IMG/VR virus record: IMGVR_UViG_3300038565_000004
Location: 1 to 27,505 of that record
Length of the DNA stretch: 27,505 nucleotides
From: a virus
Direction: 5' to 3' (one strand)
Part shown: positions 4,988 through 27,505 of the stretch, one piece after another
Numbering within the stretch: position 1 is the first letter of the stretch
How the letters are laid out: every line of letters starts with the position of its first letter
Position numbers and translations under genes: made by a program
Notes under the pieces: model-generated
Seen by the model: the letters and a program-made list of their open reading frames with translations, nothing else
The model's database searches: none
Told to the model about the DNA's origin: nothing

Positions 4988-6034
4988 TTAGTTGCTTGTT
5001 AATGCTTGTAATTCAGCGTTTGATAATCTTGTGTTGTAAAGTTTAATATCTTTAATACTCATTCCAAGAGCATCGTTTTTTATTGTTTCTAAATTAGCGT
5101 TTAAACCACTTCCACTTGAAAGTAAGGAACCATTTTTATAAAAACTATAAGAGCCATCAGAACCTACTGATAAAGCAAATTTGTTAAATCCAATAGTGTT
5201 AGTGGCACTATAAATACCACTTCCTACGCTTATTGAATTACCAACTCTAAAAATGTAAGATATTGATGTTTCTTGTCTAAACTGAAATTGATTATATTCA
5301 GTTAAACTTAATGTTTCGTGTTCTAAATACAATGTATAATCTCCACTATAATCAACATTTAAGTTTTCATTACTACAAGCATCAGCAACCCTCGTCACAA
5401 CACTCCCTTGCGTTGGTATGTACGAAGTAGCGTAGCTTCCTTGTTCTAATTGTGCTCCGTATATTTCAAAATCACTTACCCCAGTTTGTTGTTCTATTTG
5501 AAAATTCGAAATAGTAGCATTAAAGTTTAATTCATACCTAACCCATTCATTCGTTAGAGTTACATCTTTTAAACCAGTTGATGTATTGTCTCTTAATCTA
5601 ATTTGCCCAACACCTTTTAAATAAACAGTAAAAGAAATATCCCCACTTGATGCAACGTTGATGTAAATTTTATCAGAAGCATTCATTTGCAGCCTTGAAC
5701 TATTTTGTGTTCCGTCTGGAGAAACACCATAATTAGAGGTTATGGTAGCAGTTCCTATTTTAAACCAATTACTAAAATCCTCACTATAAGTAACCAAATT
5801 AGTCCTCTGTGGTTCAAGTTTTAAAGCACCTTTAGTATTTCCTAAAAAGTCAATTCTTGGTTCTCCACTACCAACAGTTTCAATTAAACCAGCTTTGTTT
5901 ACAACCGTAGCACTTGATGCTCTGTCAAAGCTAAAAGGTAATGGCTTGAAATTAGAATTTTCATCATTATACGCAAGGATAGTATCTTTCTTACCATACC
6001 ATTCTCCGTTACCAAATTTTAATGTATTACTCAT
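4988..6034 (-). CDS. Tail-fibre/adhesin-like protein, paralogue 3 (jelly-roll plus LamG-like)
   Basis: A 348-residue protein with the same plan as the two genes upstream. Residues 1-80 hold the FGNGEWYGKKDTILAYND and SSATVVNKAGLIETVGSG segment typical of phage spike/fibre N-termini. A carbohydrate-binding-like jelly roll runs from TNLVTYSEDFSNW to about residue 200, ending in the hallmark QLEQGSYATSYIPT, then VTRVADAC. The C-terminal ~125 residues fit a concanavalin/LamG fold, with SIKDIKLYNTRLSNAELQAL near the end. It probably contacts host surface glycan. It is shorter than its paralogues because its LamG part is reduced. Confidence 0.7.
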   Translation of the reverse strand: MSNTLKFGNGEWYGKKDTILAYNDENSNFKPLPFSFDRASSATVVNKAGLIETVGSGEPRIDFLGNTKGALKLEPQRTNLVTYSEDFSNWFKIGTATITSNYGVSPDGTQNSSRLQMNASDKIYINVASSGDISFTVYLKGVGQIRLRDNTSTGLKDVTLTNEWVRYELNFNATISNFQIEQQTGVSDFEIYGAQLEQGSYATSYIPTQGSVVTRVADACSNENLNVDYSGDYTLYLEHETLSLTEYNQFQFRQETSISYIFRVGNSISVGSGIYSATNTIGFNKFALSVGSDGSYSFYKNGSLLSSGSGLNANLETIKNDALGMSIKDIKLYNTRLSNAELQALTSN

Positions 6035-6035
6035 A

Positions 6036-7259: not shown

Positions 7260-7260
7260 A

Positions 7261-8559
7261 TTATTCTATTGTGTATAATTGTCCGTTAGCCATATCTGAA
7301 AAAGATACCCAACTCGTTAATGTTTCTAAATCTGAATCGTTTAATGCTGAATCGAAGTATTGAATTTGTTTAGTGTTTCCGTACCAATTAGCAACTCCGC
7401 TACCATTTGTGTAAGATAAATCATTAAGCGATGTTGGAACACTTCCTATGTTGTCAGTAACTACTTTAAATCCATTAACCCATAGAGAAAAATCATTTAA
7501 TTTATATCTAATAGAAACTTTATTGTTAGCAGTTCTATCTTCTAATGTATAATCCATTGACGCTTGATTAACTCCTCCAACAACACATTGCCCAACAACA
7601 TTATTAAGAGAAGATGTATTTCTTAAAGTTATTCTATTTGACACTCCGTTATTAACACTTATATAAATATCCTCTCCACTTGATTGTAATGTAGAAATCT
7701 CCATCATCAAAACACCCTCTGAATCATTAAACGTAGAAGCATCTCCAGCACCGTTAGCAGTTTCAGCTGAACGAGTAATACCAGCAGAAGTTCCGTAGTT
7801 GGGAATGTAGGAAGTTGGATAAGAACCTTGTTCTGTTTGTGCTCCGAATATGTAGATACCGCTTGTTCCGTCTCCTTGATATGATGGTTTTCTTGTTGCA
7901 GATATAGAATTTACTAAACAAGAAAAAATACTTGCAATGGTCGAACTTGCATTAGCAGCAGCCGTATAGGTACATCTGTAATATCCGCTACTTAATAATG
8001 TTATTGTACCAGAAGCACTTCCAGAACCAGACAAGTCCATAGTGCCATTGTTTAAATCGTAGTTTATATAACTTTGAACAAAAGCAACAGATGGAGTTAT
8101 TTGTAAAAATCTTCCGTTTGGTTTCGCAAATATGCTTATAGTATATTCTTGTCCATTAACAACTGAAAAATTAGATGTTTTAATAGATTTACTACTTGAA
8201 ATACTATCCTCAACCAATTTAAAAGCACTTGTATCTCCACTTGGCGAAACAAATCCACTTACTACACTTGCTCCACTCTTTGTCCAATAAGCATTATCAA
8301 ACGCTTCTGAATACTGTATTTTCTGCAATCTCTGTGGCTCTAAAATATGACTTGGACATCCAACAACCTTACCATCAATTAAAGGATAGTTTAATCTTGA
8401 AACACCACTTGCAACTGTTTCAATTAGTCCTTGTGCGTTTATTCTTGTAGCTGATGAACCTCTTGAAAAAGTGAAATCTCCTACACCATCTGCTGGTAAT
8501 ACGGAATACAACTTGCTTCCTTGCGTTGCTGGTATTAATGCTAATTTTGGTTTTGCCAT
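7261..8559 (-). CDS. Tail-fibre/adhesin-like protein, paralogue 1 (jelly-roll plus LamG-like)
   Basis: A 432-residue protein, the first of three tandem paralogues. Its N-terminus differs (MAKPKLALIPATQGSKLYSV), but the shared block starts at SRGSSATRINAQGLIETV and continues with LEPQRLQKIQYSEAFDNAYW, a jelly roll, GAQTEQGSYPTSYIPNYGTS and TRSAETANGAG. The LamG-like C-terminus contains ANWYGNTKQIQYFDSALNDS. The blocks are the same as in the two downstream genes, pointing to duplication. The distinct N-terminus may set where it attaches to the virion. Probable receptor-binding or glycan-binding role. Confidence 0.7.
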   Translation of the reverse strand: MAKPKLALIPATQGSKLYSVLPADGVGDFTFSRGSSATRINAQGLIETVASGVSRLNYPLIDGKVVGCPSHILEPQRLQKIQYSEAFDNAYWTKSGASVVSGFVSPSGDTSAFKLVEDSISSSKSIKTSNFSVVNGQEYTISIFAKPNGRFLQITPSVAFVQSYINYDLNNGTMDLSGSGSASGTITLLSSGYYRCTYTAAANASSTIASIFSCLVNSISATRKPSYQGDGTSGIYIFGAQTEQGSYPTSYIPNYGTSAGITRSAETANGAGDASTFNDSEGVLMMEISTLQSSGEDIYISVNNGVSNRITLRNTSSLNNVVGQCVVGGVNQASMDYTLEDRTANNKVSIRYKLNDFSLWVNGFKVVTDNIGSVPTSLNDLSYTNGSGVANWYGNTKQIQYFDSALNDSDLETLTSWVSFSDMANGQLYTIE

Positions 8560-9115: not shown

Positions 9116-9215
9116 TTTTATCTTTTTTAGTTTCTTTTGTTACTTTCTCATAAAAAACTGATAACTTCACTATGTTAACCTCTTTTGTCTTATATGTCTT
9201 TTTTTTATTCCCCAT
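9093..9215 (-). CDS. Lys-rich miniprotein, 40 aa
   Basis: ATG at 9213-9215 overlaps the TAA of the adaptor gene (TAATG), and TAG at 9093-9095 lies 23 nt inside the next gene. The product is very basic (MGNKKKTYKTKEVNIVKLSV...TKKDKNGKRNLR), with one short hydrophobic strand in the centre. The coupling-type overlaps at both ends favour a translated gene; low complexity argues for caution. No function is known. Confidence 0.4.
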   Translation of the reverse strand: MGNKKKTYKTKEVNIVKLSVFYEKVTKETKKDKNGKRNLR

Positions 9216-9727
9216 TATAAAACCCAGCTTGAAAAAGTATCTACATCCTTATCTGGATACATTTCTCCATTCTGATTATTGGTATATTCTGGATACTTAG
9301 TGCTATTATCACAGATGTAATCTAAGAAACGTCTTGTATAAAACTCAGACCTATCATTTATCTTACTCATCATTCTGTCAATGTCTCCATAGTTAGCTAC
9401 GTCAGACTCTTCCCCTCTGTGCTTAGATACACCTCCATTATCTATTTTAAACATTGCAAAAGGGAAGTACTCTGACTGAGTGAACCATATTAGCATTGGT
9501 TTAACATAATCGTCTCTAAGGAGCTTATAATCAGCATTAATAGCCAACTCTATTTCATTTGAAATAACCAAAGCTTGCATCTTATCATATAACCTACCTC
9601 CTAAGTAGTTCTGTATGTGAATATCTTGAGCCACCTCTATAAAGTGAATCAATTTATCAGCATCTGTGTTTCCGCTTATGATTGATTTTGCCTTTAAATC
9701 TTTTACTGTTATGAATAGTGCTTTCAT
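9215..9727 (-). CDS. Head-tail adaptor / head completion protein (DUF6712-like)
   Basis: A 170-residue protein beginning MKALFITVKDLKAKSIISGN, then DADKLIHFIEVAQDIHIQNY and LGGRLYDKM. This helical opening is typical of gp6-like connector proteins next to portals in Bacteroidetes phages. The centre has long helices (YVKPMLIWFTQSEYFPFAMF), and the C-terminus (MYPDKDVDTFSSWVL) resembles the end of DUF6712 proteins. Its start overlaps the portal stop (TAATG). It probably sits under the portal ring in the neck. The family call is from memory and position. Confidence 0.7.
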   Translation of the reverse strand: MKALFITVKDLKAKSIISGNTDADKLIHFIEVAQDIHIQNYLGGRLYDKMQALVISNEIELAINADYKLLRDDYVKPMLIWFTQSEYFPFAMFKIDNGGVSKHRGEESDVANYGDIDRMMSKINDRSEFYTRRFLDYICDNSTKYPEYTNNQNGEMYPDKDVDTFSSWVL

Positions 9728-11493
9728 TATTGTCCTAATATTTTTCTGATTCTACTTAACACACTTGGGTATGCTCCTTTGTCTCCCCTACTTATCATTG
9801 ACTCTCCCATTTCAGAAGGATTGACAGGTTCTTTAAGACCTTTATTGTAAGCTTCTTCAGAATTAACCTTTCTTCCACTTGACTTCTTGTAGACCTGTAA
9901 TGACCAATAATGATGACAGTTCTTACCGCCCTTAAATTTTAGCAAACTATAATTCTGTTTGTTATGACCTAATACATTATTAACACCTCTAAAAGACATC
10001 ATATTAATATCTTCTTTTCTAAACACAACCTTACTACTTGTTAAAGACTCCATCTTCTTGCAGAAGTCTCTACTGTTGTCAGACTTTCTAACTGGTTCGT
10101 AAGAGTATCTAACTTTATAGATAGCATCATCTTCTTTTGATGTTTTATCAGAATACTTGATTTCAGCCATTTTAACGGACTCATCTTCCTCTTGGTATAT
10201 CTCACTATGGATTAACTCCCAATCATCGCTTAAAACCTCTCCTAAGCCTTCTAATTGAGAATACAAGTCTTCGCCTTCTTCATCTGAAAAGTCTCCAGTT
10301 GGTTCATCAGCAGATAACTTCTCTCCAGTTTCTTCTTCTCTCTTTATTTTAGTTTCTATATTATCTAACTCTGTAAACTCAATAGGTTGTAATGTTGTAA
10401 AGTATAAGTCTTGGTGTATATTGTTAAATTCAAGTATCTCTGTTAAGCCATAAATAACACCATCTTGTAACGGTCTTATAATAACATTATCCATTAATAC
10501 TGAAGCTGTACGTAATTCCTCTGCATTGTTACCAAATCCTGTATTATCTTTAATACCTAGTAAGATAGGAGAAACAATACCGTGTCCTAACATTATCTTT
10601 TCTCTTGCTTCATCAGATAAGAACTGATATTGAGCGTGAGCATCTGGTAAGTGAATAGCCTCTATATCTGCTTTTGTTTCAGCAGACTCATTAAATGCAA
10701 TAATAGCTTTACCTGTGTTTGAACTACCAGAAAACTTTTGGTTTATCTTAGACTCTATAGATTGTTGTGTTTCAGCATTTGGAATACCATTATTAAAGTT
10801 TACGAATAAACTTGGTTGTAATCCGTTTTGTATATTAGAGATATGATAGTTAGAAACCTCAGACTCTAATTCAGCATATTGTAGACAAGCTTGGTAATCT
10901 ACTGTAGAGTAGTAGTAAAAACCACTTCTATAAGGTTTGAAGATATAAAGTTCATTTAGTTGTGTTTTACTACCTCCTCCAAATGTAGGTATTCTCTTAG
11001 GATTATCTGAGTTTTTACAGTCCTTCCAAGATGGGTGGTAGTAATAAGCTTGAATCTTTCCTTTAGTTGCTTTTTCAGCTCTCAATGTTTCCATAGGAAA
11101 GTGAGATACCTTTAGTATTTTAGTCTTAGCTTTATTGTATGTTAATTGTAAAGCACCTTGACCTAATAACTTATAATCGTTAACCAATCTCTTAACCTCT
11201 CTTGGTCTCAGTAATTGTTTCATTTTAATATAATCAGCAGGAAATACAGATGAATTAGTAGATTCTAATCCTCTACCATAAATCATATCAACAATACCAT
11301 TAATACACCTACCATTAGTAGGACTATCAAGATACCTTTCAATTAAGTTATCGAAGTAATCATTGTTATCTCCAAAAGAAACCCATTCTTTATTATGAAC
11401 TTCCTTTATTGAAGGCACTTGGTAAGAAGACATATTAACAACTCTTATGCTGTCTTTGTACTCTCTGGTTATGTTATTTTTCTTTGTACTCAT
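9727..11493 (-). CDS. Portal protein with extra C-terminal Cys/His domain
   Basis: A 588-residue protein. Portal features are seen in the first ~380 residues: WVSFGDNNDYFDNLIERYLD, then PTNGRCINGIVDMIYGRGLE, a clip/stem region, and TGFGNNAEELRTASVLMDNV, which is the typical Bacteroidetes-phage portal segment before the last stem helix. After an acidic linker (~395-440) a separate domain follows, with FCKKMESL (Cys478) and GGKNCHHYW (Cys526, His527, His528, Trp530). Such C...CxHxW patterns recall the C-termini of MuF-type minor head proteins, and no separate MuF gene is visible here. The portal forms the dodecameric DNA entry ring. It overlaps both neighbours by 1 nt. Confidence 0.85.
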   Translation of the reverse strand: MSTKKNNITREYKDSIRVVNMSSYQVPSIKEVHNKEWVSFGDNNDYFDNLIERYLDSPTNGRCINGIVDMIYGRGLESTNSSVFPADYIKMKQLLRPREVKRLVNDYKLLGQGALQLTYNKAKTKILKVSHFPMETLRAEKATKGKIQAYYYHPSWKDCKNSDNPKRIPTFGGGSKTQLNELYIFKPYRSGFYYYSTVDYQACLQYAELESEVSNYHISNIQNGLQPSLFVNFNNGIPNAETQQSIESKINQKFSGSSNTGKAIIAFNESAETKADIEAIHLPDAHAQYQFLSDEAREKIMLGHGIVSPILLGIKDNTGFGNNAEELRTASVLMDNVIIRPLQDGVIYGLTEILEFNNIHQDLYFTTLQPIEFTELDNIETKIKREEETGEKLSADEPTGDFSDEEGEDLYSQLEGLGEVLSDDWELIHSEIYQEEDESVKMAEIKYSDKTSKEDDAIYKVRYSYEPVRKSDNSRDFCKKMESLTSSKVVFRKEDINMMSFRGVNNVLGHNKQNYSLLKFKGGKNCHHYWSLQVYKKSSGRKVNSEEAYNKGLKEPVNPSEMGESMISRGDKGAYPSVLSRIRKILGQ

Positions 11494-11855
11494 TATATTA
11501 TGTATGTATTATCGTCTGAATCACTAAAAGGTTTATAGATTGTACCGTTACCTATTTCATATTTATTCGTTTCTCTTTCTATACTTGTTTGAGATGTAAC
11601 ATATATTTTGTCTCTATACCACAGTTCGCTATCTTTAGTTATCTCCATATAGTAAGTAGAGTCCTCTTCAAGAATATTTGACTGAAATGTAACCTCTGTG
11701 AAGTTAACTATATTATTAAAAGAAGCATTTGTAATAATTTGCTCTTTTCCATCCCCATCTCTTCTAATATTCAATACAATAATGCCTGTAAAGTTCCCAC
11801 TTCTTGGTGCGATTACTATAGTTTGATTTACTGTTGTTGGTTGTAGTATTAACAT
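11493..11855 (-). CDS. Small beta-rich structural protein, 120 aa
   Basis: The protein consists of alternating strands (TIVIAPRSGNFTGIIVLNIR, NFTEVTFQSNIL, STYYMEITKDSELWYRDKIY), consistent with an Ig-like sandwich. It lies between the tail tube and portal genes, and its TAA overlaps the portal start. Proteins of this kind next to Bacteroidetes-phage portals are usually unnamed virion proteins. A head decoration or neck role would fit; nothing here decides. Confidence 0.6.
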   Translation of the reverse strand: MLILQPTTVNQTIVIAPRSGNFTGIIVLNIRRDGDGKEQIITNASFNNIVNFTEVTFQSNILEEDSTYYMEITKDSELWYRDKIYVTSQTSIERETNKYEIGNGTIYKPFSDSDDNTYII

Positions 11856-11898
11856 ATTGAGATAACTAAAAATTAATATTTTGTTTTAATTAATAAGA

Positions 11899-11922
11899 AA
11901 ACCCCACCAAATGGCAGGGTTT
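11899..11922 (-). terminator. Terminator after the tail tube gene
   Basis: Minus strand AAACCCTGCC (11922-11913) pairs with GGTGGGGTTT (11908-11899) over 10 positions including two G-U pairs, with an ATTT loop, then TTTCTTATT. It lies inside the late operon, 26 nt after the tail tube stop. Confidence 0.75.
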
Positions 11923-11947
11923 AATAAGTTAAAGTATACACATACTG

Positions 11948-12511
11948 TTAAACTACAGTTGTAGCAAACCCAGCATTTAATAAGTCAACAGCAATAGTGT
12001 TAGTATACACACCAGAAGTAGAAGGTCTGTTTATGAAATTAGCAGGTGCTTTTTCCATACCTGTAAAACTTAAAGTATATCCACTCATATCTCCCATAGC
12101 ACCACCAGTAACGATTGTACCACCAGTTACATCAGCACCGTGTTCAGCTCCAGATAACAGTAAGTTTCCGTTATTGTCTTCAATGATTATGTTTGGTCTA
12201 CCAAAAGATAATAACTTAATTGTCTTATGGTCTTCCTTACTTAATTTTTTAAGAGATAATTCTAGCACTTGCTCGAAAGCAGTAGTTCCGTTTTCTCTAC
12301 TTGATTGAATGCTTTCTGAATAGGTAGAACTACCTCTAACCTCATACCTATAAGCCATAGGAGACCCTAAAACTGCATCAATTACATCTACATCAGTAGA
12401 GTCATAAGTAATACCAGTTATATCTCCGTAGTTAACAATCCATACTGCGTTAATCCCTCCAACGCTGTCTTTACAAGGTTCTGCCCTTGCAGTTGTGATA
12501 TCACAAGCCAT
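11948..12511 (-). CDS. Major tail (tube) protein
   Basis: A 187-residue protein starting MACDITTARAEPCKDSVGGI, with SYSES-type and SSRENGTTAFEQVLELSLKK segments, then GRPNIIIEDNNGNLLLSGAE, HGADVTGGTIVTGGAMGDMS and GYTLSFTGMEKAPANF. I recognise this pattern from probable tail tube proteins of Bacteroidetes siphophages: a beta-barrel core with a long loop and the conserved DVTGGT-x-x-TG-x-x-x-GDMSGY-x-x-x-x-x-G block. Its own terminators before and after it suggest high, separate mRNA levels, as expected for a protein present in hundreds of copies. Confidence 0.75.
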   Translation of the reverse strand: MACDITTARAEPCKDSVGGINAVWIVNYGDITGITYDSTDVDVIDAVLGSPMAYRYEVRGSSTYSESIQSSRENGTTAFEQVLELSLKKLSKEDHKTIKLLSFGRPNIIIEDNNGNLLLSGAEHGADVTGGTIVTGGAMGDMSGYTLSFTGMEKAPANFINRPSTSGVYTNTIAVDLLNAGFATTVV

Positions 12512-12537
12512 ATTTTATATTTTTATATTAGTTAATA

Positions 12538-12576
12538 AAAAAAGAGGTAGGCAGTTATTCTGACTACCTCTTTTTT
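12538..12576. terminator. Strong bidirectional terminator after the capsid gene
   Basis: AAAAAAGAGGTAG (12538-12550) pairs perfectly with CTACCTCTTTTTT (12564-12576), with a further CAG/CTG stem inside and a 5-nt loop. A-tract and T-tract flank the GC core on both strands. It lies 14 nt after the major capsid stop, within the leftward late operon. Confidence 0.9.
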
Positions 12577-12589
12577 AGTTTATTTGTTA

Positions 12590-13516
12590 CTATGCAATTC
12601 CGTAGGTTACGATATCTTCAGCAACTCCGTATTGAACACCTGCAGTAAATCTCATAATTACTCTTACATTTTGAGAACCATCAAGGTCAGCCATATCTAA
12701 AACTCTAACTTCTTGAGAATCTGATAATAATCCAGTTCCAAACCATAAATTGTCTTTAGTAGTAGCTACCATCTTGTCAGAAGCTAAACCGTTAGCCATA
12801 AATATTTTTACTCCGTCAAAGAATAAAACATTAACGTCTTGGTTGTTTCCTTGTGCCATATAACCAGCAGCTCCTTGACCTCCACTTGCGAATCCACCTA
12901 AGCTACGTTTGTAAGCTCTGAATACGTTTTGTGCAACATAAATGTGTAAATCTTCTCTTCCGTATAATGCAGAAGGAATAGCATCTACAACTTTACCTAA
13001 TTCTGCAACAACGTTTGCAGCAGTTACGGTAGTTCCAGTTACTTCAATTTTAGCAGCATCAGCAGCTAATAAAGTAGCAAATCCATCAAATGAACCTTCA
13101 GCCTCAGCTCCTGCCCAAATGTTTTGTTCGTTCTTTTGTGCAACTTTAGAAGCAACATAACCGATTAAATACTCTTGGAAAGAGCTTGGTAAGTTGTCAA
13201 AAGCAGAGTATCCCATTTGGATAGCATCCCAGTCAGAACGGAAATCCTTCTTACATAACTCTAAGTTAACTTGTAACTCTTTAGGTTGTAAGATTCTTTC
13301 AGTTAATGTTAAAGTAGATGTATCAGCGAAATCACAAGAACCGTCTTTTACGATACCGTCTAATTCCAATCTTTTTACAACTTCTTTGAATTTCACATTT
13401 GGTCTGATAGTTAATCCTCCATTTGCGATTGTGTTACCTGCTAAAAGTGCAGCAGAAATAAATTTTCCTGCAGATTCTCCAGCATAAGTAGTAGTAATAC
13501 TTGTAGTAGTAGCCAT
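12590..13516 (-). CDS. Major capsid protein (HK97-fold)
   Basis: A 308-residue protein. The N-terminal part includes FISAALLAGNTIANGGLTIR and a probable E-loop. Then come ELQVNLELCKKDFRSDWDAI and the spine-helix region LPSSFQEYLIGYVASKVAQK, a P-domain with LHIYVAQNVFRAYKRSLGGF, and a C-terminal beta region ending NVRVIMRFTAGVQYGVAEDI. This order matches HK97-fold capsids of Bacteroidetes phages. It follows an acidic scaffold-like gene and an XkdF-like protease gene and is followed by a strong terminator. The N-terminus may be processed, as in related phages, but no clear cleavage site is visible. Confidence 0.9.
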   Translation of the reverse strand: MATTTSITTTYAGESAGKFISAALLAGNTIANGGLTIRPNVKFKEVVKRLELDGIVKDGSCDFADTSTLTLTERILQPKELQVNLELCKKDFRSDWDAIQMGYSAFDNLPSSFQEYLIGYVASKVAQKNEQNIWAGAEAEGSFDGFATLLAADAAKIEVTGTTVTAANVVAELGKVVDAIPSALYGREDLHIYVAQNVFRAYKRSLGGFASGGQGAAGYMAQGNNQDVNVLFFDGVKIFMANGLASDKMVATTKDNLWFGTGLLSDSQEVRVLDMADLDGSQNVRVIMRFTAGVQYGVAEDIVTYGIA

Positions 13517-13528
13517 TTTTATATAGTT

Positions 13529-13996
13529 TTAATTGAATAACATTCTATTGACTCTTTGTTCTGTAGTCATAGATTTGTTTGGGTTTGATAATAAACTTTT
13601 TTTAGTTTCGATTGCTTCTTCTGGAGAATGTATTACTTCTTCAGATAATTCAACCTCTTCTTGTGATGATAACTCTTGAGGAACTTCTTTAATATCTGCA
13701 GATGATTTATCTTCTATTAAAGCGTTAATCATAGATAGTAATTCTAGTTTAAGTGCTGATAATTCTTCAGATGTAGCGTAACTTGCTATTGGTGCTTCTG
13801 CTACCTCGTCAACAATCACTTCTTCTTTAGGTTCTTCAGCAAGGATAACTTCCTTTACTTCTTCTTCGATAGTCTCAATCACTTCTTCGGTAGATAATTC
13901 TACCACTTCCTCTGCAATAACGTCTTCAACTTTTACCTCTTCTTTAGAAAGGTTTAAAAGCTCTTTTACGCTATTAAGGATTTCTGTTGCTTTCAT
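13529..13996 (-). CDS. Putative scaffolding protein
   Basis: A 155-residue, very acidic protein rich in Glu and Val with repeated E-E-V-x-E-x patterns (STEEVIETIEEEVKEVILAE) and a helical centre (TSEELSALKLELLSMINALI), ending SMTTEQRVNRMLFN. Small acidic helical proteins between the protease and the major capsid gene usually guide procapsid assembly and are then cleaved or released. The basic C-terminal tip could be the capsid-binding end. The role is inferred from position and composition. Confidence 0.65.
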   Translation of the reverse strand: MKATEILNSVKELLNLSKEEVKVEDVIAEEVVELSTEEVIETIEEEVKEVILAEEPKEEVIVDEVAEAPIASYATSEELSALKLELLSMINALIEDKSSADIKEVPQELSSQEEVELSEEVIHSPEEAIETKKSLLSNPNKSMTTEQRVNRMLFN

Positions 13997-14046
13997 ACTT
14001 ATTGATTTATATTAATATAACTATTCACACATTTAATGTCTTGTTT

Positions 14047-14178
14047 TTACTCCTCAGTCTCTTTGTATATCGAGCCTATTCCTTGCTTCCAATACTCATC
14101 AGACTTACATTTCTTACCATCCTTATCGCAATCAATAGAGTAGGTGTTCTTACACTTGCAATATACTGCTCTAGCCAT
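14047..14178 (-). CDS. Cys-rich miniprotein inside the head module, 43 aa
   Basis: ATG at 14176-14178 overlaps the protease stop by 8 nt; TAA at 14047-14049, 51 nt before the scaffold start. The protein (MARAVYCKCKNTYSIDCDKD, then GKKCKSDEYWKQ) has four Cys as C-x-C-x7-C-x6-C, which could bind one metal ion as a small zinc ribbon or knuckle. Translational coupling to the protease supports expression. No family is recognised. Confidence 0.55.
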   Translation of the reverse strand: MARAVYCKCKNTYSIDCDKDGKKCKSDEYWKQGIGSIYKETEE

Positions 14179-14758
14179 CCGATAATAGTTTTTTAAGTTC
14201 ACTTAATATACTTTCAGCTTCAACCTCTTCAACATCTTCTGCCTTATCGCTAAACATACCTTCAATACTTAATCCTAAGTACTTTCCAGACTTAACATCT
14301 TTCCATACCTCATCGTTATCTATCTTCATAGTTACTGCCCAAGCACCTACCACAGCGTTTAATCCATATAAAGCAGTCTTATCTTTCTCTGGGTCTTCTA
14401 CTATCCAAGACTCTATTACAGATACACCATTTGTCATTTGCTCATCGTGTTCTAATGTAGCATTGTTAAGTTTAAGACGTTTTAAGTATAGCTCAGAAGC
14501 CTTTCTTACAGTTTCCTTAGAGAATATAATATTGTACTCAGTCTTACCATTACGTCTATAAATAGGCTTATCTGGAACTAAAGCAAGACCAACTATAATC
14601 CTTTTCTCGGTATCTACTGTTTTAAACTCTACCTTGTGTTTACTTAGTGCAACAAAGTTTTCTTCTATTGCAGGGAATTCAACTAAAGAGATAGCTTCTA
14701 TGCCATCTTCTTCTCTAGAATCATCTATAAATAGTTCAAAAGTTTCTAATTCGTTCAT
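14171..14758 (-). CDS. XkdF-like prohead protease
   Basis: A 195-residue protein with the XkdF pattern: VGLALVPDKPIYRRNG (56-71), TLEHDEQMTNGVSVIESWIV (101-120), GAWAVTMKIDNDEVWKDVKS (138-157) and GKYLGLSIEG (158-167). Likely catalytic residues are His104 and Ser164, corresponding to the His and Ser of HK97-type prohead proteases. The acidic C-terminus (DKAEDVEEVEAESILSELKK) may be removed on maturation. Such proteases process scaffold and capsid proteins inside the procapsid. Its place right before the scaffold and capsid genes fits. Confidence 0.8.
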   Translation of the reverse strand: MNELETFELFIDDSREEDGIEAISLVEFPAIEENFVALSKHKVEFKTVDTEKRIIVGLALVPDKPIYRRNGKTEYNIIFSKETVRKASELYLKRLKLNNATLEHDEQMTNGVSVIESWIVEDPEKDKTALYGLNAVVGAWAVTMKIDNDEVWKDVKSGKYLGLSIEGMFSDKAEDVEEVEAESILSELKKLLSDG

Positions 14759-14807
14759 ATTTATTATTTTATATTATGTTAACTTAGTTTGTATTATTTG
14801 TTTTATT

Positions 14808-16931
14808 TTAAAGACTTGAAGAGCTTACAATAACTCTATCTAATTGCTGTTGATTAGTTACGTCTCCAGAGACAACATAAGCTTTTATTGGTTGGTCAAA
14901 CTTAGCCTGTATTGCACCTAATAATGCATCTTCTTTAGTTCTACCACCTACTATATTAAAAGAAGCTTCTGGTCGCTCACTTGAACCTCCTACACCACTA
15001 CCCCCACTACTAGTTGTGCTTATCGGAGTCTTAGATGCTGATGATTGAAACTTCTGTCTTGATATAGTAGCTACTTGAGCTAAACCAAAAGCTATTGTTG
15101 GTAGAGCATTAGCTAGCCTCGCAAGGAAGCCCCCTTTAGAATCAGCCATAACACCAATAGCAGCAGAAGCGGTGTCCATTAATGCATTTGCAATTCTAGC
15201 TGCCTTATTCATTTTAAACTTCTTTTTCTCTATGGCATCTTGTTTTACTCTTAATTTCTCATCATTTTGTGCTATTTGTAACTGAATAGATGCTCTTTGC
15301 TCTTTAGATAGGTTTTCATTATTTAACCTATTATTAAGCTCTGTATTTAAGGCATTAGTTTTGTTTTGCTCGATAGTTAATTCCCTGTCAAACTCAGCGT
15401 TTGCGAAATCAGTCATAGCACCTAATATCTCTTTGCTTTTATCTACAAAATCCTTCGCATCCTCTAATTTAGAGTCTAGCATTAGATTATCTAAATCACT
15501 TTTTAGTTTATCTGCTATTATCTTCTTAGCTTCATCACTTAGCTCTAAGTCAATGTTTGTATCTATCTTTAAAGGGTCTTTCTTTAAGTCTACACCTACA
15601 GCATCCGCTACAGCATCTAAGACTTTCTTCATCTTCTTTTTATTTTCCCCTATATCAACAGAATCTAACCCAAGAACATCTACTTTCTCTCTATTAATTT
15701 TCTTGTCTTCTTCTCCTTTAAATAAATCATCTATGTTAGGTATAGTTTCTATTAATTCATCTATATCTCTCTTAATGCCATCTATTTTGCTTTTAGTGAA
15801 ATTAGCTTGATTAAGAACCCCAGTAACATAACCTTTTTCAGCAGTAAACTTTTTGTCATCAGCAATAGCTTGAGCCTCTTTAATACTGTTAATTCCTTTT
15901 ATTCTAAGTTTTACTAATGCCTCTTCCTCTTGTGTCTTTAATTTGTTTTCTAAAGGTATTAATTTTGCGAACTTCTCTTCAACTAAACCTTGAAGTGCTG
16001 TTGCTCTAGCTAAATTCTCTAAAGAAGTAATTTTTCTATTAATAGCCAACACGCTCTCGTCAGTTATTTTTCCATTTTTACCTACCTGTATGTTTAAGTC
16101 TTTATATTCTGAATTAGCTTTTTTTACTGCTTTAGCTGTTTCTTCCGTAGACATAGTTCCAGAGTCATTAGCTTTGACAAGTATTTTAAGTGCAGATGCT
16201 GATTTTGCAGCAGATTCAGCAACACTATTTATTGACTTATCAGCCTTTGTGGCAGCTCCGTAAAAGTAATCTAATGCAGATACTGCTGCGGTAATAAGGA
16301 ATACGATACCAAGAGGACCCATAAGTTGTTTTCCCATTAGTTTCAAAGCACCACCTAATCCACCTGCTTTCTTAGAAGCAGAGCCTAGTTGAGAAACTAA
16401 TTGAGTAATGTTATTCGCCATACCACGAATACCATAAGGAGCATCAGATACAACTCTACTTAATTCCATAGTAGCTGCAGTAGCACTACCTGTAGCGTCA
16501 TTCTGTTTGTTTAATACATTTATTGAGTCTTTGGTAGAGGTTGCGAATCCATTAACACCTTTTTTAGCAGTTTGTAATTTCTGTTGAAGCAATGAAACTT
16601 TATTACCCATTTCAACATAGCCTTTAGAGGCGGTATCCATAGTAAATCTCAAAGAATTAAGCCTTGCTATTTCGAGCTGTATGGCTTTTTCAGAATTTTT
16701 ATGTGCTAAAACTGTAGCTTTAGTGGCTTGAATAGATTCGCCTTGTATAGCTGTCCTTTTAGACTGTATTTTAGATAGCCTATCTTCCTGTATCGCTATT
16801 TTCTTTACGACTAACTCATATTCCTTTGACCCTTCCGTTAATTTACTTAACTTATTATTAAGGCTTACGATTTGAGCTTCCGCACCTGCTTCCTGTACGT
16901 CTAATTTTATTATTACCGTCTTATCTGCCAT
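14808..16931 (-). CDS. Tape measure protein
   Basis: A 707-residue protein. It has an N-terminal coiled coil (about 15-125), a segment RVVSDAPYGIRGMANNITQL (159-178) that is characteristic of Bacteroidetes-phage tape measures, a hydrophobic stretch (LMGPLGIVFLITAAVSAL, 203-220), long charged helices through the middle, a second Ala-rich region (AARIANALMDTASAAIGVMA) and a Ser/Gly-rich linker near the end. It sets tail length and helps DNA ejection. At about 0.15 nm per residue it would give a tail near 100 nm. The start overlaps the upstream 50-aa gene by 11 nt. Confidence 0.85.
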   Translation of the reverse strand: MADKTVIIKLDVQEAGAEAQIVSLNNKLSKLTEGSKEYELVVKKIAIQEDRLSKIQSKRTAIQGESIQATKATVLAHKNSEKAIQLEIARLNSLRFTMDTASKGYVEMGNKVSLLQQKLQTAKKGVNGFATSTKDSINVLNKQNDATGSATAATMELSRVVSDAPYGIRGMANNITQLVSQLGSASKKAGGLGGALKLMGKQLMGPLGIVFLITAAVSALDYFYGAATKADKSINSVAESAAKSASALKILVKANDSGTMSTEETAKAVKKANSEYKDLNIQVGKNGKITDESVLAINRKITSLENLARATALQGLVEEKFAKLIPLENKLKTQEEEALVKLRIKGINSIKEAQAIADDKKFTAEKGYVTGVLNQANFTKSKIDGIKRDIDELIETIPNIDDLFKGEEDKKINREKVDVLGLDSVDIGENKKKMKKVLDAVADAVGVDLKKDPLKIDTNIDLELSDEAKKIIADKLKSDLDNLMLDSKLEDAKDFVDKSKEILGAMTDFANAEFDRELTIEQNKTNALNTELNNRLNNENLSKEQRASIQLQIAQNDEKLRVKQDAIEKKKFKMNKAARIANALMDTASAAIGVMADSKGGFLARLANALPTIAFGLAQVATISRQKFQSSASKTPISTTSSGGSGVGGSSERPEASFNIVGGRTKEDALLGAIQAKFDQPIKAYVVSGDVTNQQQLDRVIVSSSSL

Positions 16932-17073
16932 TTGTTAGTTTTTTTCTTTTAATAATTGTTTTTACTTCCTTAAACGATGAAGGTAATTCGTGTAATCCTT
17001 TTGCTATATTGATATCCATATCATCAATTAGCCATTCCTTGTCTCTTAGTAGTTCTAAAGTCTCTCTTACCAT
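16921..17073 (-). CDS. Small protein between hub and tape measure genes, 50 aa
   Basis: ATG at 17071-17073 overlaps the stop of the 694-aa tail gene (TAATG), and TAA at 16921-16923 overlaps the tape measure start by 11 nt. The protein (MVRETLELLRDKEWLIDDMD, then INIAKGLHELPSSFKEV) is helical with a basic C-terminus (IIKRKKLTNGR). Double coupling makes translation likely. A small tail chaperone or assembly factor would fit the position, but no homology is recognised. Confidence 0.6.
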   Translation of the reverse strand: MVRETLELLRDKEWLIDDMDINIAKGLHELPSSFKEVKTIIKRKKLTNGR

Positions 17074-19157
17074 TATATGTCGTTTAATAATTCTATTTCA
17101 GATTTTCCAGTATCCAAATTAGTTGTTATACTATTTATTTTATATTTATTTCCACTTATCACGAACCTGTCTGATAAATTGTAATTAACTAATATCCTTA
17201 AAGGTAAATATGCAGTTACTTTTATAAGCCTACTACTAATATCAAAAATGTTAGTAATGTATTTATCGTAGTAATCATTATAAAGCGTACCATCAAAATC
17301 ACTATTTAATGTCCATTCACTTATCTCATTAAAGAAGCTTAATTGACTTGCATCTGTAGCTGGCACTTTAGAAACACTATTAAAAGGCATATTTACGCTT
17401 GAAACAGAGGTATGACTCGTTGCCACGTTATCTGAATTAACTTGGTCTACGAAAGAAATAATAGTAGTTGTATTAATAGGATAGAATAATAAAGGGCTTC
17501 CTAAGTATGCGTTTTGAGATTTATCTACATTCCATCCCCATTGTATAAAAGTTTCCTTGTTAAAAACATTGGCTTGGTTTGTAAGTCTTTCAAATAACAT
17601 CTTTCCGAAAGGAACTTCAATTTTATATTGACTACCAGATAGCTTGATTTCATTATTTTCAATAATAGCAGTACTTTCTCCCCAAGCACGATTCTGTATT
17701 TCCCCAAACTTATTAGCCAAAAAAGTCTTTGTATCCTTAAACTTAAATAGAATATCATTGTAAATTAATGGAACATCTACAGAGGTTGTATCAACATCAA
17801 TATATTTTGTTATATCGTAAGCCTCTGTTGTATTATCTGCACCTTTACCAGATTCATAAAAACTATCTAATGTTTCTACTTTTATAATATCATTTTCAAT
17901 ATAAGCAGTTAAATTAAATGTTCTAAACAAACCACTTAAGAAATCTATTATTTTTATTTCTGGCATTTGCTTTGAAATATTAAACACAAATATTGCATCT
18001 ATATTTATACTTGAAGAAGTCAAAGTACCTGTATAAGAACCTTCGTTTTGCACACTTGAAAAAGCCCAAGAAACATCTGTAAAACTATTTGCAGCTTCGG
18101 TTTCTAATGTTATTGTCCAAGTTCCATTTGGCATATTGTTTAAATCAAAAGTATAGTTATTTACTTTACCTGTTTCTGTTTGGTAAGTACTACCGTTCAA
18201 TCTTACCACTACGTTATAAGTAACTCCAGAAGTACTACTTACTGTAACTGTTGAGTCTGTAACTGGTGTAGCACCTCCTTGATTATAGACAAATAAACCA
18301 ACAGTTGTTCCGTTGTTGTTTATGTTTGGTATAAAAGTACCAGTTGGTGCAAATGAATTAATTAATTTAGAATACGTTACATTTTCAACTCCAGAAAGGT
18401 CTTCAACTGCTCCAGACTTTCTGTGTAGCCATAAGAACAAGTTATTAAACTCATCTACATTAGTATTCTTAAAAAAGTCTGAACTAAATTCCAATCCATA
18501 GTCAAACTCTATTGCTTCAATTATTTTATTTACTCTTAAAGCGTATTTTAATTCATTCCATTTAACTCCGTGTACATATTGACTACCAGAGTTATTAAAA
18601 TAATGCAAGTCTCCACTATCAGCTTCGTCATTACCTGTGGTGCTATCATAATAAAGCCTCTGTGTATGCGTTATTAAAGGTGCTATAACGTGGTTTGTTG
18701 AGCTTGGTGGGCTTTCTAATTTACCTTTAACGCTTGCTGGACTGTAGCCTAAATCATACTGACTCAAGCTAACTAAGTCATTTAACTTATCTTCTCCTAA
18801 CAAATCCTTTAAAGTTACAGTACTACCAAAAAAAGTAACCCTGTATGTATGAGGTTGATTGTTCTTTAAATCAACTCCTTCAAGCTTTATTTTACCAGTT
18901 CTAAATGGTGTGTTGTTTAGTTCTATATTTGCACTTTTTTTTGTCCTTGCATCAAAACCATTAACAATATCAAAATTATAATAGTGTCTAAAAATCTTAT
19001 TATTTGTTTTTGAAGCTGGTACGCTAAAAGTTCTTGAGAAATCCGTAAATACCTTTGATATGTCTTTTATGTTCTGGATTGTTTGCGTAATTGTAACGCT
19101 TTCATCTTCAAACATATCAACTCTTTCCCCTTGAATGTATAACTGTATTTTCTGCAT
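17073..19157 (-). CDS. Tail tip / baseplate hub-like protein
   Basis: A 694-residue protein. Its N-terminus (IQLYIQGERVDMFEDESVTI, then KVFTDFSRTFSVPASKTNN and KIFRHYY at residues 36-60) is a signature I associate with large tail proteins of Bacteroidetes phages. A beta-rich insertion at about 275-390 looks like an Ig or jelly-roll module, and the C-terminal half (IKIIDFLSGLFRTFNLTAYI and a final NKYKINSITTNLDTGKSEIE) resembles hub or receptor-complex proteins. It is coupled to the tape measure through the 50-aa gene. The exact role (hub versus distal tail) is inferred. Confidence 0.65.
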   Translation of the reverse strand: MQKIQLYIQGERVDMFEDESVTITQTIQNIKDISKVFTDFSRTFSVPASKTNNKIFRHYYNFDIVNGFDARTKKSANIELNNTPFRTGKIKLEGVDLKNNQPHTYRVTFFGSTVTLKDLLGEDKLNDLVSLSQYDLGYSPASVKGKLESPPSSTNHVIAPLITHTQRLYYDSTTGNDEADSGDLHYFNNSGSQYVHGVKWNELKYALRVNKIIEAIEFDYGLEFSSDFFKNTNVDEFNNLFLWLHRKSGAVEDLSGVENVTYSKLINSFAPTGTFIPNINNNGTTVGLFVYNQGGATPVTDSTVTVSSTSGVTYNVVVRLNGSTYQTETGKVNNYTFDLNNMPNGTWTITLETEAANSFTDVSWAFSSVQNEGSYTGTLTSSSINIDAIFVFNISKQMPEIKIIDFLSGLFRTFNLTAYIENDIIKVETLDSFYESGKGADNTTEAYDITKYIDVDTTSVDVPLIYNDILFKFKDTKTFLANKFGEIQNRAWGESTAIIENNEIKLSGSQYKIEVPFGKMLFERLTNQANVFNKETFIQWGWNVDKSQNAYLGSPLLFYPINTTTIISFVDQVNSDNVATSHTSVSSVNMPFNSVSKVPATDASQLSFFNEISEWTLNSDFDGTLYNDYYDKYITNIFDISSRLIKVTAYLPLRILVNYNLSDRFVISGNKYKINSITTNLDTGKSEIELLNDI

Positions 19158-20705
19158 CTATCTAATATTGTTTATAGTATCAAATGATTTGTCAAATTCT
19201 ATTGTGTATTCTACCAACTTGTTATTTAAAGAAGTCTTGTAAGTAATGTCACTTGTCTTAACATTTATTGGCAATACCTGTTCTCCTGTTTCTAATATGT
19301 TTGTTACCCAAACTTTTTCAGATAACATCATTTGCTTAAACACTTCATTGTACTCTTCACTTAAAAATCCACTACTTAAAGTGATTGATTCTTTTCCAAC
19401 TACATTAAAATCTCTATTAACGTGGTTATAACTATTGTAAGTACCTAAAGAAGATATTATGTTAGACTTGTAAGATTCTTTCTCAATAGTCATTTGCTCA
19501 ACTGCTTTCTTGAAGAAGTACATATCTTGTAAAGCACCAAACTTATTTATAAATGTTACCTTCTTTGGTTCGTATTTACATTCTTCTATTACGTTTACTT
19601 TTATAGTTTCTGTTTTAATACCATAATATTCTCTTGAAGATGGTAAAGAAATATCAACATCTCCAGTATATAGATTATCTTTAGTTATAACTAATATTGG
19701 AGGATTTCCATCATTTTCATTAATACCAGTCAAAGTGTATTCAGTTAAAGTACTTGTTAATGCTATTGTTCTACTTGCGTATTGTGTAAAATTACCACCA
19801 TTTTCTTGCAACCTTAAAACAATAGTTCCAGTTCCTTTTAAGTAAGCAGATATATTAATTTCTTGACCTTGAGTTGTTCCACTTATACTTGGAGAAGCCA
19901 CATACCCAGAATTATTAGCACTTGATAATCTATAAACATTATCTCCTAATGAAGTAATTAACGCATCTCCACCTTTAAACCAAGAACTACTTGATATATC
20001 TATATTTGAAATTAATTCATCTCCGTAAGAACCAGCTGAAACAGTTATTTTGTCTACTGCACCAATAGAATAACTATTTAAAAATGATTGTAAGCAATTG
20101 TTTAATTCGTAAGAACCACCACCCTCTACAACTCTTTCTTGGAATGTATCATAGTTTGTATCATCTCCATAAATAGAAACGTACTTTATTTGGTTAGAAC
20201 TCAAGTCTTCTTTATCAAATGCTTCCGATGCTATTACTTCTCCATCTTTATAGAAAACAACTGATGGACTATTAGTGGTATGAATAGGTATTCTGAAAAC
20301 ATTGTCTTCTAATACAAATAGTTCTCTATTGTTAATAAATAAAGAATCATTACTTGGAGATAAAGTTGGCTCTTCAAAATAGGAATATCCATCAAAGGCT
20401 GATTGTGTATTAGTAAACACTTGAAGTGGTGCATCAGATGAATCGTAAGCAGTTTTAACAGTCTTAACCCATACTGATTGACCACTATAATCTCCATCAA
20501 AAGTAACATCTACATAATCTCTAACAAGTTCTGATATCTCAAAAAGAACATCTACACTTGCTCCTATTACATTCTTTCGTAAACTATACTGTGCAGTTAC
20601 TGGTGTGTTTCTATCTCCATTCCATATAGATATATCCAATGTAGTGTAAGCAGTATTTGCTACTGATGTACTTGTGTAATATGGACTCCTTAAATTTATT
20701 GCCAT
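19158..20705 (-). CDS. Tail protein with embedded carbohydrate-binding-like module, 515 aa
   Basis: The N-terminal ~225 residues are beta-rich (MAINLRSPYYTSTSVANTAY...). Residues about 232-352 (NIDISSSSWFKGG, then INISAYLKGTGTIVLRLQEN) form a jelly-roll module like those of the fibre cassette at 4988-9115. The C-terminal part holds CKYEPKKVTFINKFGALQDM (376-395), recurrent in this tail family, and ends ITYKTSLNNKLVEYTIEFDK. The stop is directly followed by the hub-like gene. It is probably a distal tail or tail-tip protein in which a sugar-binding domain has been inserted; the surrounding segments would then be the conserved tail part. Confidence 0.6.
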   Translation of the reverse strand: MAINLRSPYYTSTSVANTAYTTLDISIWNGDRNTPVTAQYSLRKNVIGASVDVLFEISELVRDYVDVTFDGDYSGQSVWVKTVKTAYDSSDAPLQVFTNTQSAFDGYSYFEEPTLSPSNDSLFINNRELFVLEDNVFRIPIHTTNSPSVVFYKDGEVIASEAFDKEDLSSNQIKYVSIYGDDTNYDTFQERVVEGGGSYELNNCLQSFLNSYSIGAVDKITVSAGSYGDELISNIDISSSSWFKGGDALITSLGDNVYRLSSANNSGYVASPSISGTTQGQEINISAYLKGTGTIVLRLQENGGNFTQYASRTIALTSTLTEYTLTGINENDGNPPILVITKDNLYTGDVDISLPSSREYYGIKTETIKVNVIEECKYEPKKVTFINKFGALQDMYFFKKAVEQMTIEKESYKSNIISSLGTYNSYNHVNRDFNVVGKESITLSSGFLSEEYNEVFKQMMLSEKVWVTNILETGEQVLPINVKTSDITYKTSLNNKLVEYTIEFDKSFDTINNIR

Positions 20706-20706
20706 T

Positions 20707-21192
20707 TTATATTTCTTTTAATTTTACTATTATATCTAGTTTATATGCTTCTGCTATCATATCTGTTACATTTTTTACTACATCTTTCTTTATCTCTTCA
20801 AGGAATCCACTACCTTGATATCCAAATCTCTTTGATATACCTTTATTCCTAATGCTAAAAGCAATAGCTAGAGCCATTTTATCAGCACTAATAAATCTAC
20901 CACTTTTATTATTTCTTGGAGTAATTCCCCTTGAACTTGCCCATTTCTTTATACTAGCTACTTTTGAGTCAAATTCAGCTTTACCACCTTTACCTCTGTT
21001 TTTTATACCTTCAGAAAGAGCCTCTATGTACTTATTAGCCTCTACTGTAACGATATTACCTTTAACTTCATAAGATATAGACCTATCTAAGTCTCCAGAA
21101 GCCTTAAAACCATCTCTCTTGATAGCTAACCTCTTTACCTCAGAAACAATCTTAGCACCAACATCATTTAAAGCCTTATCTAAATTCTCCAT
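20707..21192 (-). CDS. HK97 gp10-like tail completion / neck protein
   Basis: A 161-residue protein fitting the HK97-gp10 family. A helical N-terminus (LDKALNDVGAKIVSEVKRLA) leads to GDLDRSISYEVKGNIVTVEA, the typical segment preceding NKYIEALSEGIKNRGKGGKA. Next is SADKMALAIAFSIRNKGISK and the C-terminal helix. Members complete the neck or tail end at the head-tail interface. The start immediately follows the upstream stop, so it is part of the tight late operon. Confidence 0.75.
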   Translation of the reverse strand: MENLDKALNDVGAKIVSEVKRLAIKRDGFKASGDLDRSISYEVKGNIVTVEANKYIEALSEGIKNRGKGGKAEFDSKVASIKKWASSRGITPRNNKSGRFISADKMALAIAFSIRNKGISKRFGYQGSGFLEEIKKDVVKNVTDMIAEAYKLDIIVKLKEI

Positions 21193-21651
21193 TTAACAGA
21201 TGCTTATGCCATTAGGAATCTCTATTGATATGTCAGTACTCCATCCTGCTAGTTCGTTGCTAAAACGCTCTTTAAATGGCTGTGCTGAAGGTTGTGTTGT
21301 AACTTGATAGTTAGCTTCAAACAAATCTCCTCTCATCAACTTAGAAATTAAACTGTTTATTACTTGGAATTGGGTGTTTAATATGTCGTGTAGGTTATCA
21401 TTACCGTAAAACAAATCAAAATCAGCCTTTTCTTTATTGTAATCCACTATATCAGCACATAACAGTTTTATATTGAAAACTACCGTTCTTTCATTGTAAT
21501 TTACACTATCTATTAATAAGTGTGATAAAGGGAACATAGTTGTCTTATCTAGGTCTACATCTGCTATATCTCCGTATGTTACGGTATTTACAGAAGGACT
21601 TAGTAGTAATTCCTCTTTTAATTTATCTAAAATGTCGTAAACGTGTGTCAT
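21193..21651 (-). CDS. Putative tail terminator / completion protein, 152 aa
   Basis: Starts ATG at 21649-21651, overlapping the stop of the frameshifted chaperone as ATGA. The protein has a helical start (VYDILDKLKEELLLSPSVNT), FPLSHLLIDSVNYNERTVVF in the centre and ends ELAGWSTDISIEIPNGISIC. The final GW-x-x-x-I-x-I-x-IPN pattern recurs in small proteins beside HK97 gp10 homologues of Bacteroidetes phages. A tail terminator or completion role is likely from neighbourhood; motif evidence is limited. Confidence 0.6.
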   Translation of the reverse strand: MTHVYDILDKLKEELLLSPSVNTVTYGDIADVDLDKTTMFPLSHLLIDSVNYNERTVVFNIKLLCADIVDYNKEKADFDLFYGNDNLHDILNTQFQVINSLISKLMRGDLFEANYQVTTQPSAQPFKERFSNELAGWSTDISIEIPNGISIC

Positions 21652-22426
21652 CTTGTTTGTGCTTTAAGCATTCTTTCTTCTAATTCTGATTTCTCTTTAA
21701 TAAATTCCAAGTACATTAAACATTGGTGTACTGGAAGTTCTGTAACTTCTCCAATTCTTCTGACATCTTCTCCAGCGAGTGTAAATATTGCTTGATAGTT
21801 TCCCCACTTTTTACCGAATGCTTGTCCTTGCGACCTTCCTGCTTCTGCTGAAGCTCTTTGAGTGTATAAGCCATCGTAAAGTTGGATAATTTTGTCGCTA
21901 AACGATAAAAAAAAACCCTTGCGGCTAATGCAACATCGAGTGGAGTACTTTTCATAACCTCTGCGAGATACTCTGTTCCTTTGTAGTCGTGTATAAGGTA
22001 ACTGCCTTTACTCTTGAGTTTAACAGGTCTGTACATAACAGCCATTGCTCTATGAAAGTCTTTATCTACGAAGAGGTATTTCTCTAAATCCACAAATTCT
22101 CCATAACTCATCTTATCAAAGTTAGGTATTAAGCCAAATTCAACAGTAACTCCATCAGTACCTTCCATTCTAAAGGTCTTTACAAGCTCTGGTTTGCTGT
22201 TTAAAACATTAGATAAGTGTTGTATGGTATTATCAAATACACTTAATCCTATCCTGTCTATGTCTTTAAGCTCTACTTCACAAAATATTCCAAGTAGCTT
22301 CTTCTCTAAAAATCCTGTAAGTTCTGCATCCTTGTTTTTCTCCAAGATTTCAATATACTTCTGCCATTGGCTTAGTTTAATGTCTCTTAGAGTTTCTGGT
22401 ATTGTAAAGTTAAAATCGTTATCCAT
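21648..22426 (-). CDS. Tail assembly chaperone, -1 frameshift fusion product (about 259 aa)
   Basis: Codons 1-173 are shared with the 236-aa product. A -1 shift on T-TTT-TTT (21914-21908) leads into an open frame of 86 further codons ending at TGA 21650-21648, which overlaps the next ATG. The extension reads ...SDKIIQLYDGLYTQRASAEA..., then GQAFGKKWGNYQAIFTLAGE, VRRIGEVTELPVHQCLMYLE and a charged helix. K-K-W-G-x-Y and LPVHQCLMYL look like a conserved tail protein rather than noise. The alternative explanations are a miscounted homopolymer, or transcriptional slippage, either of which would also join the frames. Confidence 0.75.
21716..22426 (-). CDS. Tail assembly chaperone, zero-frame product (236 aa)
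   Basis: First gene of the late operon. The protein starts MDNDFNFTIPETLRDIKLSQ and contains FGLIPNFDKMSYGEFVDLEK (97-116) and YRPVKLKSKGSYLIHDYKG (132-150), features of the first tail chaperone of Bacteroidetes phages. At residues 171-173 (Val-Phe-Phe) it crosses a run of nine T residues; after that the zero frame continues for 63 codons (rich in Gln, Lys and Glu) to the stop at 21716. A -1 shift at the same place opens a longer frame that ends precisely on the next start. The two products are expected to act together on the tape measure protein, as G and G-T do in phage lambda. Confidence 0.75.
   Translation of the reverse strand: MDNDFNFTIPETLRDIKLSQWQKYIEILEKNKDAELTGFLEKKLLGIFCEVELKDIDRIGLSVFDNTIQHLSNVLNSKPELVKTFRMEGTDGVTVEFGLIPNFDKMSYGEFVDLEKYLFVDKDFHRAMAVMYRPVKLKSKGSYLIHDYKGTEYLAEVMKSTPLDVALAARVFFYRLATKLSNFTMAYTLKELQQKQEGRKDKHSVKSGETIKQYLHSLEKMSEELEKLQNFQYTNV
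21907..21915 (-). promoter_or_regulatory. Slippery site for -1 frameshifting (T9 run)
   Basis: In zero frame the codons are GTT TTT TTT TAT, giving the heptamer T-TTT-TTT. A weak stem (ATCGT ... ACGAT, loop of about 24 nt) can form right after it. No strong pseudoknot was recognised by eye. Confidence 0.65.
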
Positions 22427-27103: not shown

Positions 27104-27268
27104 AATTTTACCCCCATAACAAAGACGGAGACCTCCATAACAAAGACGGATTTTACCCCACCATATTAAACACAGCCCCATAACAAAGACGGAATTATTT
27201 TTTACCCCACCATATTAAACAAAAAAAAAGGGAGACAAAATTAATTGACTCCCTCCCCATATTAAACA
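27104..27268. repeat. Compound direct repeats next to the terminase gene
   Basis: Repeat A, CCATAACAAAGACGGA, occurs exactly three times (27114-27129, 27135-27150, 27178-27193). Repeat B, ACCCCACCATATTAAACA, occurs exactly twice (27155-27172, 27204-27221), each preceded by TTTT, and once in part as CCCCATATTAAACA (27255-27268). A and B alternate. The cluster is non-coding and lies at and beyond the terminase terminator. The bases are much richer in C and G than the surroundings. Confidence 0.85.
27221..27253 (-). terminator. Terminator of the large terminase gene
   Basis: Minus strand GGGAG (27253-27249) pairs with CTCCC (27234-27230), and after one mismatch CAA pairs with TTG; nine T residues follow (plus A at 27221-27229). 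It lies 25 nt after the terminase stop and overlaps the end of repeat B. Confidence 0.8.
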
Positions 27269-27278: not shown

Positions 27279-27505
27279 TTATCTTATCACATAAACTCCA
27301 GAGTTAACTCCTTGAACTAAATACATCATTCCGTATCTAATCGCATCCACAAAGTGATTGAACTTATCAATAGGTGCTTCCCCTTTATCTTTCCATACAT
27401 AGTTGTTAAGCTCTCTTATAACACCGTGAGAACCTCTATCTACTATTATCTCATAATCCTGCATCAATGCAATACCAGACAATATACTACCTTTCTTCTT
27501 AATAG
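27279..27505 (-). CDS. terL: Large terminase subunit, C-terminal nuclease segment (cut by window edge)
   Basis: The frame is open to the right edge, giving 74 visible residues (an internal TTG at 27482 is not a real start). The segment YEIIVDRGSHGVIRELNNYV (minus-strand frame) is followed by WKDKGEAPIDKFNHFVDAIR and YGMMYL. The D-x-x-N-H-x-x-D-A-x-R-Y-G motif is the C-terminal catalytic motif of the RNase-H-like nuclease of phage large terminases, which cuts concatemers during packaging. The ATPase domain would lie outside the window to the right. Confidence 0.85.
   Translation of the reverse strand, partial: IKKKGSILSGIALMQDYEIIVDRGSHGVIRELNNYVWKDKGEAPIDKFNHFVDAIRYGMMYLVQGVNSGVYVIR

Follow-up and report, generated by a model that had tools for sequence, protein, structure and literature searches.

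A single gene of a virion morphogenesis operon very probably encodes two proteins that have a domain of about 173 residues in common and carry alternative C-termini, the choice between them being made by a frame switch at a run of nine T's. The gene lies on the minus strand of the window, by which we mean the whole 27,505-nucleotide stretch that was analysed (positions 1 to 27,505 of IMG/VR virus record IMGVR_UViG_3300038565_000004). Most of the product would remain in the zero frame for 63 more residues to give a protein of 236 residues, and a fraction, read in the −1 frame at T9, would acquire a predicted helical end of 86 residues (259 residues in total). The switch itself may occur in either of two ways, with RNA polymerase adding one U at the run or the ribosome slipping by −1 on U_UUU_UUU, and both would yield the identical peptide V-F-F-L-S. 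What the sequences themselves show is a pair of open frames, selection on each of them and an invariant T run, and the reading is built on these.

Gene layout and slip site

The zero-frame codons around the run (GCA AGG GTT TTT TTT TAT CGT) place T_TTT_TTT in the zero frame, and after the slip the −1 frame continues as TTA TCG TTT AGC ... for 86 codons to a TGA at 21650–21648 that overlaps the ATG at 21651 of the next gene (Table 1). The initial annotation had proposed this arrangement, and both the exact phase of T9 within GTT TTT TTT TAT and, to the base, the 86-codon −1 frame with its overlapping TGA are confirmed; the pair of 236 and about 259 residues that it put forward is recovered from the sequence as 236 and 173 + 86 = 259 residues. 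Since the −1 frame runs 64 nt beyond the zero-frame stop and finishes on the next start, the frame switch may also bring about translational coupling to the next gene.

Table 1 Window coordinates of the frame-switch gene and of genes in its neighbourhood
Feature	Position	Strand	Remarks
Zero-frame ORF, 236 aa	22426..21716	minus	ATG 22426, stop 21716; N-domain ~1–173 plus 63-residue extension
T9 slip site, zero frame GTT TTT TTT TAT	21907..21915	minus	A-run; reading order 21915 to 21907
−1-frame extension, FFLSFSDK...KAQTR	21648..21914	minus	86 codons past the slip
Dual-coding stretch, about 189–190 nt	21719..21906	minus	Purifying selection in both frames
Next gene, 152 aa	21193..21651	minus	Downstream position conserved in relatives checked (141–156 aa)
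161-aa gene	20707..21192	minus	Weak neck1/HK97-gp10-like match: phrog_5 E=0.0096; PF04883 E=0.17, below cut-off
Tape-measure-like protein, 707 aa, coiled-coil	14808..16931	minus	phrog_30292, unknown; phrog_226, minor tail, E=0.042

A separate start that would make the −1 tail a sizeable gene of its own is unlikely. The ORF list of the window holds no ORF of at least 50 aa that begins at ATG, GTG or TTG and ends at 21648, and in 206 of 253 relatives the −1 frame contains none of these three codons between its 5′ stop and the 25th codon after the slip. When the window sequence was synonymously re-coded so as to keep the −1 protein, the zero frame stayed open this far in 0.75% of re-codings; the same test on eleven divergent relatives gave 0–3.3%. 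The two-frame arrangement is not due to chance, nor is it a sequencing error. A second A9 run, at window positions 27221–27229, lies close to the end of a fragment of the terminase large subunit (27279–27482), and no listed ORF of at least 50 aa crosses it.

Conservation across relatives

Among 30 close relatives in IMG/VR, both frames are kept in all 28 that reach far enough, and a near-invariant block surrounds the T run. Scans of IMG/VR yielded 183 relatives for the zero frame, 210 for the −1 tail and 163 for a version like that of Nonlabens phage P12024, with at least 590 −1 tail stretches; the arrangement is kept across hundreds of virus genomes, mostly marine. A scan of genome contigs with the zero-frame alignment gave no relatives. 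Of the IMG/VR loci in which the two domains occur together, 370 of 370 carry the tail in −1, with no fused locus and none in the +1 frame; many of these loci overlap, and the count includes some contigs more than once.

The T run measures 9 in 208, 10 in 42 and 12 in 3 of 253 distinct copies and is never shorter, with the caveat that one scan pattern began with FF and would preferentially recover copies that have the run; three other scans used N-domain patterns alone. All 253 copies hold the T_TTT_TTT heptamer, of the X_XXY_YYZ form, in phase. Every complete copy has a zero-frame extension of at least 53 codons except three P12024 copies with 25 codons, which show that this extension can be short. 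Nonlabens phages P12024L and P12024S are isolates that resemble the window gene in the N-domain, T9, its identical phase and the −1 tail, at ~26% identity; they differ in their shorter zero-frame extension and in their annotation, where the N-domain and −1 tail halves appear as separate hypothetical genes (P12024L_40/_41 and P12024S_38/_39). Judging from the hosts of P12024, the hosts of the wider family would be flavobacteria.

The counts above also bear on an assembly or sequencing artefact, in which the true DNA would have T10, joining the two frames into one. Homopolymers are prone to error, and BFVD contains a single chain of 258 aa, A0A516L611, that both the N-domain and the tail match; against these stand the 0 fused of 370 loci and the natural T10 and T12 copies, in which the two domains remain separate and the tail is in the −1 frame. 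The two-frame state conserved at several run lengths refutes the artefact, to which we give practically no weight. The initial annotation had itself raised two contrary outcomes, a single fused frame, and relatives with only one of the frames and no slippery run; no relative was fused, and none lacked either frame or the T run.

Both frames of the overlap are under selection

The overlap differs from its surroundings in the substitutions that it tolerates. In 41 disjoint pairs, pS is 0.438 in the zero frame upstream and 0.410 in the −1-only end, compared with 0.144 (zero frame) and 0.177 (−1 frame) inside the overlap. Over 90 pairs, the zero-frame pN/pS is 0.59 in the overlap versus 1.31 for the virtual zero frame of a −1-only control, that is, the zero phase carried across the −1-only end, where the zero frame codes nothing. 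Changes that are silent in the −1 frame gave rise to 0 zero-frame stops in the overlap where 7.7 were expected (90 pairs), and to 15 in the control against 11.6 expected. Simulations with selection on the −1 frame only predict a zero-frame identity of 0.737, below the 0.818 observed, and introduce a zero-frame stop in 62% of simulations per pair; the per-pair probabilities of an open zero frame have a product of 1.4e-18.

It is conceivable that the −1 frame alone matters and that the zero-frame extension is a passenger left open by chance. Such a passenger would fit with the better conservation of the −1 tail than of the zero-frame extension among close relatives, with the 25 zero-frame codons after the slip in P12024L/S, and with the poor prediction of the extension (pLDDT 35–58 from residue 181 on). 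It does not fit with the lowered pN/pS, the missing stops, the minimum of 53 codons in all complete copies outside P12024 or the vanishing open-frame product, and the −1-only simulation and the −1-only control lead us to reject it as highly improbable. The ~190-nt dual coding is real, because pN/pS and stop counts place both frames under purifying selection, which upholds the initial annotation's proposal of a zero frame open for 63 codons past the slip and about 190 nt read twice. Taken together with the simulation, these values identify the zero-frame end as a selected alternative C-terminus.

Mechanism of the switch

The initial annotation had described a −1 frameshift site. The in-phase heptamer and the −1 tail stand, and the ribosomal step is less secure, as the absence of runs below nine T's and of the doubly silent T-to-C change fits transcriptional slippage at least as well. 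A serious candidate, which we place a little short of an even chance, is programmed −1 ribosomal frameshifting of the classical lambda G/G-T kind on U_UUU_UUU, with nine T's present only through the need of the flanking codons for T. Ribosomal slippage is viable because the perfect heptamer is kept in phase in every one of the 253 copies. Motifs of the type H_HH.U_UU.Y are efficient in E. coli (PMC4066793), and known tail-chaperone switches are ribosomal (PMC5009743). The T's that flank the heptamer occupy codon positions favoured by hydrophobic residues anyway, which explains them in part.

Several observations weigh against the ribosome as the sole agent. The floor of nine T's has no exception, and in two lineages (L229/L260; L344) a loss of flanking T is offset by a gain of T on the opposite side, so that the run stays at 9–10. 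The last T of the heptamer is never C in 253 copies, though in most of them C would leave both proteins unchanged and TTC makes up 25% of Phe codons; on the same tree, conserved Phe/Tyr/His codons show 17–44 T/C changes and conserved N-domain Leu codons 11–40 TTR/CTN changes, giving a range of 11–44 at control sites. In E. coli, U_UU.U_UU.C occurs naturally as a site of ribosomal slippage and is efficient (PMC4066793), which may not hold for Bacteroidota; since C is nevertheless never seen here, a ribosomal mechanism alone is not obviously enough. Downstream folding energies gave no sign of a conserved stimulatory structure, the 60- and 90-nt windows being near shuffled sequence in most of 37 diverse copies with no consistent excess. 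Many lambda-type sites function without strong RNA structure.

For the polymerase, A9/T9 runs cause slippage in bacteria (PMC5009743). On balance we lean slightly towards transcriptional slippage over ribosomal frameshifting. In its fullest form, this proposal is that a large unannotated phage family makes a G/G-T-like pair through slippage of RNA polymerase at a T run that must be nine or longer, and that the shared ~190 nt encode two different, selected C-terminal domains; it is put forward tentatively, at somewhat under even probability. The third (+1) frame is closed by a stop 0–3 codons 3′ of the T run in 252 of the 253 copies, mostly through TTTAG or TTTAA, which could serve as a fail-safe; such a stop would suit bidirectional polymerase slippage and is not counted here, since the two coding frames are a confounding factor.

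Protein families, predicted structure and role

The zero-frame ORF belongs to PHROG family phrog_32199, of unknown function; phrog_32199 and phrog_38404, both listed as 'unknown', are apparently the two halves of one frame-switch gene. Sequence searches of Pfam, NCBIfam and PDB gave no usable match for either product. The N-domain is predicted with a pLDDT of about 90 for most of residues 11–175, and the −1 tail is predicted to be helical (pLDDT about 84 over its residues 41–88). Foldseek matches are to uncharacterised phage proteins, including the P12024S protein, with one weak hit (E=0.51, prob 0.60) to a 'tail assembly chaperone'. VIA-align matches involve the coiled-coil of C-terminal helices alone, with Z below 8, and were treated as uninformative. 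A weak structural relative of the N-domain is gp10 of Flavobacterium phage 6H (L194 10000–10927, minus strand), which has T_TTT_TTC at the equivalent FFY; in that phage an unannotated −1 reading that resembles the tail fills the ~300-nt gap to gp09, with a TAG directly after the heptamer in that frame.

By analogy with lambda gpG/gpGT, we infer that the pair would serve in tail or neck assembly as one major and one minor form kept at a constant ratio. Of the initial annotation's G/G-T-like 'tail chaperone', the two products with a shared N-terminus hold, and the name itself finds no sequence match to a named family and no place beside the tape-measure-like gene; it is an inferred label, with the assembly role suggested by neighbourhood and analogy. 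The 707-residue protein is itself called tape-measure-like from a reading of its sequence, without a family match. Between it and the slip gene lie genes of 152, 161, 515, 694 and 50 aa, and because these five genes intervene, the positional hallmark of G/G-T, a location immediately before the tape-measure gene and behind that for the major tail protein, is absent. In the relatives checked, the downstream order is a gene of 141–156 aa, usually one of 148–188 aa, and then a large one.

The position lends some support to a two-form neck or virion protein in place of a tail chaperone, in the manner of T7 10A/10B, a two-form capsid protein. The gene is first in its operon, follows directly after the terminase gene in P12024L, and is near a neck-like gene and several genes from the tape-measure-like one. 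The pair has no structural-protein match either, and its helical −1 tail resembles a chaperone extension, by analogy alone; a neck or virion role is less likely than not, though it deserves real weight. The virion genes of window 9215–22426 (minus strand) are in an unusual order, with the tape-measure-like gene before the protease, capsid-like, portal and connector-like genes. Further along, three adjacent minus-strand ORFs in window 4988–8559 (432, 407 and 348 aa) have the look of tandem paralogues: all of them contain a stretch resembling 'FSF.R.S.ATRVN..GLIE' and a C-terminal motif similar to 'LETLTS', and the one of 348 aa matches PHROG tail proteins.

Relation to known frame switches

The lambda G/G-T tail assembly chaperones (Levin 1993 and Xu 2004, as cited in PMC5009743) are alike in their common N-terminus, a longer product made by a late −1 switch, a major/minor logic and a place in a virion morphogenesis operon, features that are read here from the sequence. 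They are unlike the present pair in using GGGAAAG-type heptamers where we find a run of at least nine T's; here, in addition, the zero-frame end is a selected alternative domain, the gene does not adjoin the tape-measure-like one, and no sequence similarity was found. The distance from slip to stop averages 26 nt (SEA-PHAGES) and 36 nt (Xu set) in the tail-chaperone sets quoted by PMC10885494, compared with ~189 nt here. Bacterial transcriptional slippage in Shigella spa13/mxiE and Thermus dnaX, as described in PMC5009743, likewise involves A9/T9-type coding runs, needs no strong RNA structure and adds a C-terminal extension; here, in contrast, the gene is from a phage, both frames are selected over ~190 nt, and slippage is a candidate. 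Passages from openly accessible papers that mention both tail assembly chaperones and transcriptional slippage, among them PMC5009743 and PMC10885494, describe tail-chaperone switching as ribosomal frameshifting, and we make no claim of priority.

Known phage tail-chaperone switches are ribosomal frameshifts with short overlaps, whereas the family described here is widespread and has ~190 nt of dual coding. Gene callers break the frame-switch gene into two unknowns that seem unrelated (PHROGs 32199 and 38404). Were the polymerase to make the switch, transcription would determine the proportion of the two forms.
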